Positions 20,524 through 49,410 of a stretch of 64,000 nucleotides of DNA are shown one piece after another. Source of the DNA: Peribacillus frigoritolerans (GTDB lineage: Bacteria; Bacillota; Bacilli; Bacillales; DSM-1321). The stretch covers positions 1,086,001 to 1,150,000 of the forward strand of contig NZ_CP158190.1 of assembly GCF_040250305.1 (NCBI RefSeq), written 5' to 3'. How positions within the stretch are numbered: the stretch's first letter is position 1; every line of letters starts with the position of its first letter. Under the pieces are notes generated by a model. The model searched no databases, was not told the DNA's origin, and worked only from the letters and a program-made list of their open reading frames with translations. A program made the translations under genes and the position numbers.

Positions 20524-21780
20524 TTAATTTTTCTTGGAGAATTCATCATATTGATTAAGTTTAATGTTAAGAAAGAGGGACATTTTTTGAATCGGGTCTT
20601 TTAACCGGATATTTCCCACTTCCGAGATCCTTTTTAATCGATAATTCAATGTATTCACATGGATATGAAGGTTTCTTGAAGCCTCGTTTGGGTTGCAGTC
20701 TTTCTCTAGATAGACGGTGAGTGTTTGCAGCAATTCCGTCTGGTTTTTCATATCGTATGCTTTAAGTTTAAGGATGGAAGGATGAACACGACGCTGTTTG
20801 TTGCTTGCGAGTGATTCAATCATTTGAAACATGCCAAGTTCTTCATAATGTAAAATGAGTTTCATGTCATCAGGGAATATATTCTTCATTTTTAGAGTGT
20901 ATAGAGCTTCTTCGTAACTTGATTTAACATCCATTAAGTTTTTATACATATTGCCAGCCGTTCCAAGGATATGCTCAACACCGAAACGCCGTTTCATCTC
21001 CAGAATGAAAAAAGGAATGAACTCATAAATCGATGAAGTGAAAGAAGGGCTGTTTTCCTGGTTGGCTCCTGCGAAAAGAATGAGCTTGTTATGGTCAATG
21101 GCAAATAAGGAACTGTTTATCTTTTGAGTGGTCGTTAACATGTATGAAATGTAGCGCTCCACTTCGCGATTGATCTCTTTAGGAAATTCGAATACCAATA
21201 TGGAAAAAACCACTGGAACATGGATCGAGAATTTCTTATAATTTTCAATTATTTCCGATTCTTCTTGGTAGTGCCCGGTCAACATGCGCCAAAGGAACTC
21301 TTGATGACCCGCTTCTTTCCTTTTCTTTTTCAATTGCAATTGCTGTAACTGGTTCTTCGCCTCCTTGGCAGCGAATTGCAGAAATTGCATATCTTCTTCG
21401 GTGAATGGTTCATTTACTTCCAAAGCCCAAATGAATCCAAGTACTTCATTATTTTTCCGGATGGAAACCGCAACCCTGTTACCGAGACCGACATCATTGA
21501 TGGCCCCGATTTTAATAGGGGCATCTTCTTTCAATAACGCGGGTATGAAGCCATCTTTCCATAAACTGTTGATGACCTTTTCAGGGACACGTCTTCCGAT
21601 TATGGTCATGATACGAGCCTGATCCGTCGTATCATCGTGAGTGCTATAAGCAAGTAAGCGATGGTTACCGTCCTCGATTGTAATGGGGCAGCCTAAAACA
21701 GAACTGATTCTATCGGCAAACTCCATCATATCTCCATAAAGGTCTTTAAAAATATCTCTATTTTTTTCGAATTCCTTCAT
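20524..21780 (-). CDS. adeR: PucR-family transcriptional regulator, AdeR-like
   Basis: 418 residues. Order: a GAF-like sensor (about 15-145), a charged linker (QLQLKKKRKEAG), a GGDEF-related middle domain (about 165-300), and a C-terminal PucR HTH with LLQTLTVYLEKDCNPNEASRNLHIHVNTLNYRLKRISE (about 357-395), its best mark. Members sense small metabolites; B. subtilis AdeR sits beside ald and activates it in response to alanine. The same linkage here, separated only by ecsC, supports the same job. No ATG ribosome site stronger than GGGGC about 10 bases upstream is seen. Confidence 0.85.
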   Translation of the reverse strand: MKEFEKNRDIFKDLYGDMMEFADRISSVLGCPITIEDGNHRLLAYSTHDDTTDQARIMTIIGRRVPEKVINSLWKDGFIPALLKEDAPIKIGAINDVGLGNRVAVSIRKNNEVLGFIWALEVNEPFTEEDMQFLQFAAKEAKNQLQQLQLKKKRKEAGHQEFLWRMLTGHYQEESEIIENYKKFSIHVPVVFSILVFEFPKEINREVERYISYMLTTTQKINSSLFAIDHNKLILFAGANQENSPSFTSSIYEFIPFFILEMKRRFGVEHILGTAGNMYKNLMDVKSSYEEALYTLKMKNIFPDDMKLILHYEELGMFQMIESLASNKQRRVHPSILKLKAYDMKNQTELLQTLTVYLEKDCNPNEASRNLHIHVNTLNYRLKRISEVGNIRLKDPIQKMSLFLNIKLNQYDEFSKKN

Positions 21781-45193: not shown

Positions 45194-45216
45194 AATACTT
45201 GTAATTTGCAAGTATT
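45194..45216. promoter_or_regulatory. MarR-type operator, copy 1 (upstream of the ArsN1-like gene)
   Basis: Perfect 8-7-8 palindrome AATACTTG-N7-CAAGTATT, 61 bp before the ArsN1-like start. The same architecture recurs at 46004 and 46526. Read as the site of the MarR regulator encoded at 46056. Confidence 0.75.
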
Positions 45217-45277
45217 AATGTTATAAATCAACTATAGAATCTTGAAAAATTCATGTGGCAAACGAAAGGGGAAAGAT

Positions 45278-45763
45278 ATGATAATTCGTGAAGCGATCGA
45301 CACAGACATGGGTTCGGTCAAAGAAATTTACAATCAAGGGATTGAGGATAGAATTGCCACGTTAGAAACGGAACTGAAGGATCAAGCCTACATGGAGGAG
45401 TGGTTTGCCAAACACAGCGGTCGATATAAGGTAATTGTCGCTGAACAAGAAGGGGAAATCGTTGGATGGGCTTCCTTGAATCAATATAACAATCGTAGTG
45501 CTTATAATGGGGTTGCCGATTTATCCGTTTATATCTCAAGAGATCATCGAGGGAAAGGGATTGGCGATTTATTGCTGCAATCAATCGAAAAGCTCGCAAA
45601 AGAAAATGACTTCAATAAAATTGTGTTATTCACTTTTCCCTTTAACCAGATTGGTCAAGGATTATACAAAAAACGGGGGTACCGTGAAGTAGGAGTGTTT
45701 AAGAACCAGGGAATTTTAGACGGGGAATTTGTCGATGTGATGGCTATGGAGAAATTACTTTAA
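45278..45763 (+). CDS. arsN1: ArsN1-like GNAT N-acetyltransferase
   Basis: 161 residues from ATG 45278 (GGGG upstream). The pattern is that of ArsN1/phosphinothricin acetyltransferases: EIYNQGIEDRIATLETEL (about 16-33), KVIVAEQEGEIVGWASLNQYNNRSAY (about 50-75), VYISRDHRGKGIGDLLLQSIEKLA with the acetyl-CoA loop (about 83-106), and a C-terminal GYREVGVFKNQGILDGEFVDVMAMEKLL. ArsN1 acetylates the amino group of arsinothricin, an arsenical antibiotic. The usual TFE is TLE here. Proximity to ars genes supports this over a phosphinothricin-only role. Confidence 0.8.
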   Translation: MIIREAIDTDMGSVKEIYNQGIEDRIATLETELKDQAYMEEWFAKHSGRYKVIVAEQEGEIVGWASLNQYNNRSAYNGVADLSVYISRDHRGKGIGDLLLQSIEKLAKENDFNKIVLFTFPFNQIGQGLYKKRGYREVGVFKNQGILDGEFVDVMAMEKLL

Positions 45764-45785
45764 ACAATTAGGGGGTAGGAGGATT

Positions 45786-45983
45786 ATGACAGTAAACCAT
45801 TCAAGCGTATTGTCTGTTGGTTATTTTGATGCTTATTTCAAGCTGGTTTTAGCTTCTCGTGAACCTATGGTGGAAAAGGCAAAAGAATTCATTGAAACAA
45901 ACTTTTTTAAAGGTGAAGCGTGTTATTATGGCGAGCAAACTCACCGAAATTTCATGGCAGCTTTTAATAAGCTAAAAGGATAA
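45786..45983 (+). CDS. Unknown 65-residue protein of the ArsN1-MarR cluster
   Basis: 65 residues, not recognised. TAGGAGG lies seven bases before the ATG, a strong site, so translation is likely. The sequence is soluble with aromatic residues (GYFDAYFKLVLASREPMVEKAKEFI then FFKGEACYYGEQTHRNFMAAF) and one cysteine. It starts 22 bp after the ArsN1-like gene and must be cotranscribed with it. It might be a small binding or regulatory protein in the metalloid response; nothing in the sequence decides this. Confidence 0.7.
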   Translation: MTVNHSSVLSVGYFDAYFKLVLASREPMVEKAKEFIETNFFKGEACYYGEQTHRNFMAAFNKLKG

Positions 45984-46003
45984 ATGAAAAAATAGTTGAA
46001 TCA

Positions 46004-46026
46004 AATAGTTGTAAATTGCAAATAAT
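46004..46026. promoter_or_regulatory. MarR-type operator, copy 2 (upstream of the MarR gene)
   Basis: AATAGTTG-N7-CAAATAAT, an imperfect version of the 8-7-8 palindrome, 29 bp before the MarR start; suggests autoregulation. Confidence 0.65.
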
Positions 46027-46055
46027 TAGCGTATAAATAAAGTGAGGTGACAGTA

Positions 46056-46511
46056 ATGGAAAATGAAAACCTTAGAGGTCTCTTCCAACTCTTGACTAGG
46101 CGGTTTGGATTATTGAATAAAAATTGCTGCAGTGCAGGTGGAATTGAAATTTCACTCGTTCAAAGCCATATCCTGTATGAAATAAATCGACAAAACAACT
46201 CTTCCATCCAGCAAATTGCAGAAACACTAGGGACGGACATTACGACCTTCAGCCGACAAATCCAATCTTTAATAAAAATGAATTTGGTCACAAAAACACA
46301 AGATGCTGAAGATCGGAGAATTTCTATTCTTTCTCTGACCGATGAAGGAATGAAGGTCAATCAATTAATCGATCAGCAAATGAATGATTATTTGAATGAA
46401 ATCTTCAAGACAATGAATGAGTTTGAAAAGGAATCCGTCGTGCGTTCCCTGAAATTGCTTAATGATAAAATGCTGAAGTCTTCCGTATGCTGTACTACTC
46501 CTTGGGGGTAG
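46056..46511 (+). CDS. MarR-family regulator with paired cysteines
   Basis: 151 residues from ATG 46056, with GTGAGGTG upstream. Winged helix: SLVQSHILYEINRQNNSSIQQIAETLGTDITTFSRQIQSLIKMNLVTKTQDAEDRRISILSLTDEG (about 35-100), including the D-x-R wing motif DAEDRR. Two Cys pairs, Cys24-Cys25 near the N-terminus and Cys145-Cys146 near the C-terminus, are unusual for MarR proteins and could bind As(III) or a similar thiophile (inference). Three copies of one palindrome lie upstream of the ArsN1-like gene, this gene and the flavoprotein, so it likely represses all three. Confidence 0.88.
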   Translation: MENENLRGLFQLLTRRFGLLNKNCCSAGGIEISLVQSHILYEINRQNNSSIQQIAETLGTDITTFSRQIQSLIKMNLVTKTQDAEDRRISILSLTDEGMKVNQLIDQQMNDYLNEIFKTMNEFEKESVVRSLKLLNDKMLKSSVCCTTPWG

Positions 46512-46525
46512 TATGATTTTTCGGA

Positions 46526-46548
46526 AATACTTGCAAATTACAACTTTT
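46526..46548. promoter_or_regulatory. MarR-type operator, copy 3 (upstream of the flavoprotein)
   Basis: AATACTTG-N7-CAACTTTT: the left arm and centre equal the inverted form of copy 1, the right arm is degenerate. It lies 25 bp before the flavoprotein start. Confidence 0.65.
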
Positions 46549-46572: not shown

Positions 46573-47949
46573 ATGATGGTTCAATTTGATAAAAGTGCTT
46601 TACCCGTAGCAATTATAGGCGGGGGTCCTGTAGGGCTTGCCGCTGCCGCTCATTTACTGAAAAAAGGGGAGAAGTTTATCGTACTGGAAGCGGGAGATTC
46701 GGTTGGTTCCAGCATGCTGGAGTGGGGCCATGTCAGAATGTTTTCCCCATGGCAGTATAACATCGATCAAACAGCAAAGGAGTTACTTGAGAAGTCTGGG
46801 TGGACTTCACCCAACCAAGAAGCTTTGCCAACAGGTCGCGAACTGGTAGAAGAATACCTTCTGCCGCTAAGTAACCTTCCGGAAATTAATGAAAACATCT
46901 TATTACAAGCAAAAGTAGTCGGTGTTGCCAAAAAGGCTCACGATAAATTGAAAACCGGAAAACGGGTCACCGTTCCCTTTCAACTGTATGTAGAAGTGGA
47001 TGGTGACACAAAAGTGGTTGAAGCGAAGGCTGTTATTGATTCATCAGGTACTTGGACCAATCCAAACCCGATCCTTTCCAATGGTATCTGGACGAATGCC
47101 GAGAGAAAATTACTCAATCAAATTCACTATGGCATTCCAAACGTCGTCCAATTGGAAAATAGATATCAAAATAAATCGATCATGGTGATCGGGAGCGGTC
47201 ATTCTGCAATAAATGCCCTATTGGATCTCGCGTCATTACAGCAAAAGTTTACGGATACCAAGATCTACTGGGTTCTTCGTAAAAAACAGATCAATGAAGT
47301 GTACGGCGGGCAAGAAAACGACGGCTTGGCAGCTCGTGGAGAGTTGGGCATAAGAATTCAGCAATTAGTGGAGTCTGGACGAATCAATATCCTCACTCCC
47401 TTTCATATTAACGGCGTGTATCCAGCAAACGGTAAAATCACTGTTGTGGGGGAACTTGACGGAGAAGAAACCACAATCGGTGAGATCGATGAGATCGTTG
47501 TGAGTACGGGTTTCAGACCTGATACATCCTTTTTAAATGAAATAAGGATAAACCTTGATTCAGCTGTGGAAAGCATAGAAGCGCTTGCTCCGCTTATTGA
47601 CCCCAATATCCATAGCTGCGGAACTGTGCGGCCGCATGGTGAACAGGAATTACGGCACCCTGAAAAGAACTTCTACATTGTTGGCATGAAGAGTTATGGA
47701 AGAGCGCCTACATTCTTACTGGCAACAGGCTACGAACAAATCCGTTCCGTGGTGGCTTATCTGACAGGGGATGTCGAGGGGGCAAAAGAAGTGCGCTTGC
47801 AACTTCCTGAAACAGGAGTTTGCAGTGTGAATCTGACATCTAGTTCCTGCGATTCTGATATTCCTGCAACTGAAACAAACGATAGTTCTTGCTGTGGCAG
47901 TCCGGTTCCAGTGAGATTGGAAATAAAAAATAATTCCTGTTGTGAATGA
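46573..47949 (+). CDS. FAD/NAD(P)H flavoprotein monooxygenase-like with cysteine-rich tail
   Basis: 458 residues. FAD-binding IIGGGPVGLAAAAHLLKKG (about 14-32) and a second Rossmann motif MVIGSGHSAINALLDLA (about 209-225) give the layout of class B-type flavin monooxygenases or thioredoxin-reductase-like oxidoreductases. The last 40 residues hold six cysteines, including Ser-Ser-Cys-Cys-Gly and Asn-Ser-Cys-Cys-Glu ending the protein, apt for thiophilic metalloid binding. ArsO/ArsV-type flavoproteins in arsenic loci oxidise or otherwise handle organoarsenicals; this is a plausible but unproved match. GGAGGG precedes the ATG; ATG 46576 is an alternative start. Confidence 0.82.
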   Translation: MMVQFDKSALPVAIIGGGPVGLAAAAHLLKKGEKFIVLEAGDSVGSSMLEWGHVRMFSPWQYNIDQTAKELLEKSGWTSPNQEALPTGRELVEEYLLPLSNLPEINENILLQAKVVGVAKKAHDKLKTGKRVTVPFQLYVEVDGDTKVVEAKAVIDSSGTWTNPNPILSNGIWTNAERKLLNQIHYGIPNVVQLENRYQNKSIMVIGSGHSAINALLDLASLQQKFTDTKIYWVLRKKQINEVYGGQENDGLAARGELGIRIQQLVESGRINILTPFHINGVYPANGKITVVGELDGEETTIGEIDEIVVSTGFRPDTSFLNEIRINLDSAVESIEALAPLIDPNIHSCGTVRPHGEQELRHPEKNFYIVGMKSYGRAPTFLLATGYEQIRSVVAYLTGDVEGAKEVRLQLPETGVCSVNLTSSSCDSDIPATETNDSSCCGSPVPVRLEIKNNSCCE

Positions 47950-48110: not shown

Positions 48111-48458
48111 TTATTTCTCCCAAAGCTCGATCAGTCGACCTTCAGGATCTTCAATCCAAATAAACTTTCCAAATTCACTAATCTCTTTTTTCTTTGCAAG
48201 AGGTACACCAATATGTTCAAGATGCTTAATAGTCTCGTTTAGATTATGTACTTGGAAATTTATCATCACTTGTTGTTCTGTTGGAAAATAACTGTCATTC
48301 TCGGTAAAGAAAGAAAAGATAGTCTCATTTCCTAATTGGGGTTTTATCACAGTCCCATTCCAATTTTCTATTTCAATCTTCAACACTTCACTGTACCATT
48401 TTTTTACAACTTCAAGATTCTTAGTTCTCCAAAATATTCCTCCGAAACCTTTTAACAT
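48111..48458 (-). CDS. VOC/glyoxalase-fold protein
   Basis: 115 residues with one paired beta-alpha-beta-beta-beta module: GFGGIFWRTKNLEVVKKWYSEVLKIEI (about 4-30) and NFQVHNLNETIKHLEHIGVPLAKKKE, ending IWIEDPEGRLIELWEK. This is the common glyoxalase/bleomycin resistance/dioxygenase fold. Metal ligands could be the final Glu and an early position, but the usual first His is replaced by Gly-Gly-Ile-Phe, so the reaction cannot be assigned. The start has AGGAGTTAG upstream on the coding strand. Some ArsI C-As lyases share this fold, but their cysteine pair is absent here. Confidence 0.85.
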   Translation of the reverse strand: MLKGFGGIFWRTKNLEVVKKWYSEVLKIEIENWNGTVIKPQLGNETIFSFFTENDSYFPTEQQVMINFQVHNLNETIKHLEHIGVPLAKKKEISEFGKFIWIEDPEGRLIELWEK

Positions 48459-49359: not shown

Positions 49360-49410
49360 TAAGAATATGCTTATACAATGTTGTTGAATAATCACATAAG
49401 CATATACTTA
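49360..49410. promoter_or_regulatory. Two ArsR-type operator boxes
   Basis: TAAGAATATGCTTA (49360-49373) and TAAGCATATACTTA (49397-49410), two 14-bp near-palindromes 37 bp apart, differing at two mirrored positions and located 31 and 68 bp before arsR. Their form matches SmtB/ArsR imperfect inverted repeats; metalloid release of ArsR should derepress the operon. Confidence 0.75.

Follow-up and report, generated by a model that had tools for sequence, protein, structure and literature searches.

The locus described here lies within the window, by which we mean the whole 64-kb stretch of DNA that was analysed (bases 1,086,001-1,150,000 of a single-contig genome of 5,596,670 bases). Its elements follow one another in the order site, arsN1, p65, site, marR, site and flavoprotein gene (Table 1), and arsR, arsB and arsC are found approximately 1.5 kb further on. 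A preliminary description of this DNA had placed palindromes upstream of an ArsN1-like gene, a marR gene and a flavoprotein gene, and profile searches confirmed the three products as an ArsN1a protein, a MarR protein and an FAD/NAD(P) flavoprotein.

Table 1. Features of the locus, in positions of the window.
Feature	Position	Strand	Remarks
Operator 1	45194..45216	+	upstream of arsN1; perfect 8-7-8 palindrome; matrix score 29.3
Likely arsN1 promoter	TTGTAA 45199-45204, TATAAA 45222-45227	+	17 bp spacing, from letters
arsN1, ArsN1 family A N-acetyltransferase, 161 aa	45278..45763	+	NF040503
p65, 65-aa protein, three helices predicted	45786..45983	+	28 homologues
Operator O1	46004..46026	+	upstream of marR; matrix score 29.0
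Likely marR promoter	TTGTAA 46009-46014, TATAAA 46032-46037	+	17 bp spacing
marR, MarR-family repressor, 151 aa from ATG	46056..46511	+	PF01047; C24-C25, C145-C146
Terminator-like hairpin, then TGATTTTT	46493..46513	+	spans marR stop codon
Operator O2	46526..46548	+	between hairpin and flavoprotein gene; matrix score 25.9
FAD/NAD(P) flavoprotein, 458 aa, Cys-rich C-terminal tail	46573..47949	+	Pyr_redox_3 72 bits

The arsN1 product scores 218.4 bits against the ArsN1 family A equivalog (cut-off 170); its assignment is this profile score, and acetylation of arsinothricin is its putative activity. The protein encoded by p65 matched no Pfam or NCBIfam family. Its structure model has a pLDDT of 85, and a PDB search gave no match to its fold at E <= 0.001. 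In two related loci (L029 and L094) p65 has its own operator, without an ArsN1 gene before it, and distant relatives of p65 sit downstream of the window-type flavoprotein gene in other genera.

The marR gene has an alternative GTG start at 46047. Its product reaches 46.8 bits with the MarR family domain (cut-off 24.6), and its structure model (pLDDT 81.7) has the MarR fold, with MexR and MarR chains as the best structural matches. No NCBIfam model was reached, the best being BilQ with 50 bits versus a cut-off of 125. Likewise, the protein stays below the cut-offs of the ArsR/SmtB model NF033788 (22.2 bits, cut-off 55; there is no PF01022 match), the AdcR equivalog NF038251 (37.9 bits, cut-off 175) and the OhrR model (23 bits, cut-off 200). 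Homologues number 1588 at E <= 1e-10, and the 120 listed are 69-97% identical, the nearest named ones among them belonging to Peribacillus. The two Cys pairs to which the preliminary description drew attention are both present in all 120 listed homologues, one CC falling within the first 40 residues and the other within the last 20. The second pair falls in the low-confidence tail of the structure model. The first lies within about 2 residues of position 30 of ZitR/AdcR by an alignment extrapolated 1-4 residues past the aligned stretch, and Cys30 of these proteins is presumably a metal ligand. A Clostridioides difficile MarR with Hg bound (8xt8) is also among the structural matches, and no arsenic-bound chain is named among the VIA-align structural matches listed.

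The flavoprotein carries a CC within its last 45 residues in 119 of the 120 homologues listed. Like the ArsO-family flavin monooxygenases it is an FAD/NAD(P) oxidoreductase in an arsenic island, but with 56.1 bits it does not reach the ArsO equivalog cut-off of 425, nor does a Paenibacillus-type representative of the ArsO-like flavoproteins counted below (285 bits), and the window type differs further in its Cys-rich tail. ArsV and ArsW are ArsO-family flavin monooxygenases, as cited in PMC9144182. Between the flavoprotein gene and arsR lies a glyoxalase-like gene on the reverse strand (48111-48458), which reached 20 of the 30 bits of its Pfam cut-off and gave no match in an NCBIfam search, and therefore we do not call it ArsI.

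Operator sites in the window and in related loci

According to the preliminary description, one 8-7-8 palindrome is repeated at 45194, 46004 and 46526. The three places held up, but the identity of the letters did not: only the first site is perfect, and the mismatches to AATACTTG-N7-CAAGTATT number 0, 3 and 2, respectively. At the same tolerance, at least three matches occurred in 3 of 100 shuffled windows, and the pattern as written is only modestly above chance. We judged it too loose to define the operator and put in its place a matrix derived from the MarR-upstream sites of 80 other loci. Beyond the three sites, the next best place for this matrix in the 64-kb window scores 8.5 (at 21231), and we consider the cross-locus matrix to be the better argument for the three sites. 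No such site precedes arsR, in agreement with the earlier claim that this operon uses different boxes of its own: a doubled box, TAAG-N6-CTTA, is found there at 49360 and 49397, and the whole window holds three boxes of this kind.

Random scatter of the palindrome through the genome had been named beforehand as the outcome that would count against a regulon, and none was seen with strict patterns. The core TTGYAAWTTRCAA, which we took from the three sites, is found nowhere else in the 5.6-Mb genome, and its reversed control has three copies. Looser patterns were at chance level, with 21 places versus 26 for the control when the core was given a free spacer (TTGYANNNTRCAA), and 208 versus 222 when the 17-mer ACTTGCANNNTGCAAGT was allowed up to 3 mismatches. 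Therefore, regulon members outside the locus are not callable with such patterns.

A scan of species genomes returned 431 MarR relatives at E <= 1e-3, and the best 80 of these constitute our named loci (L023-L102). The comparison with orthologous clusters that had been suggested for the palindrome was thus carried out, and it revealed a site upstream of the MarR gene in all 80 loci, two of them weak, with a consensus of approximately wATAcTTGCA-N3-TGCAAgTATw that is tighter than the 8-7-8 pattern. The two weak sites (L052 and L054) score only 12.6, the other 78 scoring 17 or more, and in both loci stronger sites stand upstream of a flavoprotein gene that precedes MarR. The site core is located 43-65 bp upstream of the MarR start (52 or 53 bp in 52 of the 80), and its TTG and CAA are invariant over 69 distinct sites. 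Sites scoring at least 10 number 194 in the real loci versus 8 in mononucleotide-shuffled loci. Because the best match in each region served to train the matrix, the fit at those sites is partly built in, and independent support comes from the constant position, from the second site described below, which was not used in training, and from the three sites of the window.

In 68 of 75 distinct regions, the left half-site is followed 17 bp downstream by a hexamer that agrees with TATAAT at four or more positions, and thus the left half is likely to serve as the -35 element of the marR promoter. The arsN1 and marR sites of the window share this layout. Extra sites occur upstream of ArsN1 or p65 in eight loci (L023-L026, L029, L066, L087 and L094) and upstream of ArsP in three (L066, L094 and L098).

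Across 43 family genomes, the strict pattern occupies 43 distinct places, of which 34 are within 2 kb of the MarR gene and 9 are elsewhere. It is present in 16 of the 18 family genomes with this MarR versus 3 of the 25 without (Fisher p 7e-7, kinship ignored); the window site at 46526 matches it on one strand only. This conservation of the operator together with the MarR gene lends good support to the earlier proposal that a MarR regulon exists independently of the ArsR operon. The locus is accessory, because one genome of the same species (G031) has neither this MarR nor the strict pattern, and another genome (G015) carries arsN1, marR and the flavoprotein gene all as broken copies.

The second operator and the adjacent hairpin

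A second copy of the site (O2) is present downstream of the MarR stop codon in 77 of the 80 named loci, and in 64 of these 77 it starts 12-15 bp past the stop. We also compiled an even sample of the order, in which 68 of 299 genomes match the MarR protein at E <= 1e-25 and 60 of the 72 matches listed were taken (L103-L162); at least 8 of these 60 loci are also among the named ones. In the even sample, O2 stands 7-65 bp past the stop (43 loci). The constant feature is the distance from a hairpin to O2, with a gap of 12-14 nt in 61 of 75 cases. Among 107 distinct sequences, drawn from the window and from both sets of loci, 75 have a hairpin and T tract upstream of O2, versus 106 of 2140 shuffles and 17 of 74 sequences upstream of O1. 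This criterion replaced hairpin energy in 48-nt pieces, which proved to have a poor control as a terminator test (40/43 versus 137/300 random pieces in the even sample).

One reading of this arrangement, to which we give nearly an even chance, is gated read-through, wherein repressor bound at O2 would block the elongating polymerase at a leaky terminator, and the target gene would be reached only through read-through from the marR promoter once the repressor is released. The enrichment of hairpin and T tract before O2 and the near-fixed gap, which is kept even where the hairpin sequence differs, argue for such a mechanism, as does the near absence of -35-like hexamers before O2 (4 matches at a spacing of 12 to 23; at most 2 of 73 sequences). 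However, 32 of the 107 sequences are without a hairpin and T tract, and hairpin energy alone separated poorly from random pieces in the even sample.

It is also possible, albeit somewhat unlikely in our judgement, that the target gene has a weak second promoter whose -10 element is covered by O2. The motif WATACT occurs in the left O2 arm at 41 of 63 distinct sites, versus 3 right arms and 12 of 69 left O1 arms, and could be such an element, which speaks for a second promoter. Nevertheless, no sigma-A promoter was found at O2: there is no -35 and no extended -10 upstream of it, and a -10 hexamer (at least 4 matches) stands 17 bp downstream in just 3 of 74 sequences. Moreover, the start codon of the flavoprotein gene in the window lies only 24 nt beyond O2, so that a promoter would hardly fit between them. 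A DNA loop joining O1 and O2 would agree with the bracketing of marR by two sites in 77 of the 80 named loci, but it seems improbable given that the separations are 511-539 bp in the named loci and 511-563 bp in the even sample, and that the fixed helical phase sought in both samples is absent.

Short relics of the start of an ArsO-like flavoprotein gene lie between O2 and the present target in several loci (L034, L045, L046, L048, L087 and others), as if this flavoprotein had been the older target.

Arsenic genes in the company of MarR

At least one of ArsB, Acr3, ArsC, ArsM, ArsI, ArsN1 and ArsP is encoded in 71 of the 80 named loci, as judged by tblastn (E <= 1e-8) in the stretch fetched for each locus, and the other nine hold none of the ars genes sought there. 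This count does not involve arsR, and such neighbours support the link to arsenic that had been proposed for the regulon. ArsR and ArsC are each found in 56 of the 80 loci, and ArsB in 38.

The first recognised same-strand gene behind MarR, before which unrecognised ORFs may intervene, codes for a flavoprotein, ArsP_1, ArsM, ArsI/CadI or ArsN1 in 78 of the 80 loci. It is an ArsO-like flavoprotein in 36 (decayed copies included), the window-type flavoprotein in 20, ArsP_1 in 8, ArsM in 8, ArsI/CadI in 4 and ArsN1 in 2, and there is none in 2. One representative of each type, and two of ArsI, were checked against profiles, with scores of 355 bits for ArsM (cut-off 263), 161 and 167 for ArsI/CadI (116), 219 for ArsN1a (170) and 174 for ArsP_1 (32). 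Four ArsP proteins of the even sample score 163-189 bits with PF03773. Since this is a broad family, ArsP is used here as a label and not as proof, and the PF03773 permeases and the flavoproteins are putative, not proven, arsenical enzymes.

A recognised arsenical-type first gene follows MarR in 47 of the 60 even-sample loci (ArsP in 33, the window-type flavoprotein in 5, ArsN1 in 4, ArsI in 2, ArsM in 2 and an ArsO-like flavoprotein in 1), with none in 13. In a tree built from the window and the two sets of loci (141 rows), at least 31 changes of the first gene are counted. Both CC pairs are present in 47 of the 60 MarR proteins, and of these 47 loci, 46 have a site with a score of at least 15 and 43 have an ars gene, the other four holding none of those sought. 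The 13 loci without both pairs comprise eight with neither site nor ars gene, three with both, one with the site only and one with an ars gene only. All eight that lack site and ars genes share one genus code, and four of them keep the N-terminal CC; the loss of the cysteines together with the regulon therefore amounts to about one event. When cysteines, site and ars genes were compared in independent pairs on the tree, the supported branches gave just 3 pairs for each comparison.

ArsN1a scores over the cut-off without this MarR in 5 of the 16 family genomes that have ArsN1a, which counts against a strict link. The genome examined here has no ArsM or ArsI over the cut-off and a single ArsP_1 gene, at 4.17 Mb. 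Given the lack of ArsM and ArsI, an organoarsenical inducer would come from other organisms.

Proposed regulation and relation to known systems

The DNA itself shows the sites and how they are conserved with this MarR, together with the conserved cysteines and the kinds of gene nearby. From these we infer the binding, the ligand and the enzyme activities of a small four-gene regulon, and we consider it reasonably probable that a single MarR repressor controls these genes and that a trivalent arsenical, most probably organic, releases it. The 23-bp palindrome would be occupied by MarR dimers. Upstream of arsN1-p65 and of marR, it would lie over the -35 element, such that initiation would be blocked and marR autoregulated, and at the flavoprotein gene O2, just downstream of the terminator-like hairpin, would add another block. 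The ligand of C24-C25 and/or C145-C146 would be a trivalent arsenical, and most probably an external organoarsenical such as methylarsenite. The arsenical-bound repressor would then leave the DNA, allowing ArsN1, p65, MarR and the flavoprotein to be made and the compound to be detoxified. The neighbouring ArsR operon would respond to inorganic arsenite by itself.

We favour an organoarsenical over arsenite because the first genes behind MarR encode products (ArsP, ArsM, ArsI, ArsN1 and the flavoproteins) with known or supposed activity on methylarsenite or arsinothricin. Arsinothricin is only one candidate inducer among others. For ArsM and ArsP, such activity is also described in PMC8649762.

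We regard it as rather unlikely that the inducer of the same regulon is inorganic arsenite or antimonite, with MarR as a second As(III) sensor beside ArsR. Genes for ArsR, ArsB and ArsC are common in the same islands, and vicinal thiols bind As(III), both of which would suit such a sensor. However, the islands carry their own arsR, and none of the 80 named or 60 even-sample loci has ArsB, Acr3, ArsC or ArsR as its first recognised gene downstream of MarR. Although the MexR and mercury-bound MarR matches and the N-terminal CC near ZitR/AdcR position 30 (by extrapolated alignment) would be consistent with a MarR protein that responds to thiol stress (peroxide, quinones) or to soft metals (such as mercury or zinc) instead of arsenic, this is very improbable given that ArsM, ArsI, ArsN1 or ArsP is encoded in 67 of the 80 named loci.

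The proposed arsenical-responsive repressor resembles ArsR/SmtB proteins in being apparently autoregulated, in its location beside detoxification genes and in having thiols as the likely ligand site, but it belongs to another winged-helix family, and its operator is unlike the neighbouring ArsR box. A methylarsenite-selective ArsR is also known to exist. With the AdcR/ZitR zinc repressors it shares the MarR fold and the approximate position of the N-terminal CC, and it differs from them in its CC pairs, its arsenic neighbours and its sub-cut-off AdcR score. Unlike the thiol-reactive repressors MexR and OhrR, it has two CC pairs, and no peroxide genes are among the recognised neighbours of window-type MarR.

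Regulators of arsenic genes are known among ArsR/SmtB proteins, two-component systems and LysR types. Neither MarR repressors nor arsenic repressors are new as such; what appears to be new is their combination with an O1-marR-hairpin-O2 cassette. No MarR-type arsenic sensor was found in the open-licence literature searched, although one may have been described elsewhere, and none appears in the portions covered of PMC8060452, PMC9144182, PMC8649762, PMC12607644, PMC6947025 and PMC12608789. One of these, a 2025 review on arsenic in Bacillus, does not mention MarR anywhere in its main text and refers to arsN, arsO and arsT as poorly understood (PMC12607644).

A more general proposal, which we put forward as speculative and somewhat doubtful, is that a Bacillales family of MarR repressors, characterised by two vicinal thiol pairs, serves specifically to sense trivalent organoarsenicals that microbes use as weapons against one another. 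It would control interchangeable ArsP, ArsM, ArsI, ArsN1 and two flavoproteins via the O1-marR-hairpin-O2 cassette, with O2-bound repressor gating read-through of an intrinsic terminator. If true, a MarR protein with conserved vicinal thiols would represent another way of sensing arsenicals, and a regulator of organoarsenical resistance could be named for many soil Bacillales and might serve as a biosensor part. The hairpin-operator arrangement would offer a system in which repressor action on elongation can be tested, and the regulon gives a lead on the 65-aa protein and the Cys-tailed flavoprotein.

The MarR family also occurs on plasmids (21 records), and the three plasmids examined show ars islands, one of them in the order MarR, small ORF, ArsM, ArsN1. 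A MarR with 62% identity is present on plasmids of the gammaproteobacterium Stenotrophomonas rhizophila (CP065518 and CP031730), which could reflect either transfer or contamination. Finally, a dual-specificity phosphatase gene recurs in the arsenic islands, being found in 22 of the 80 named loci (e.g. L035:6444-6887).
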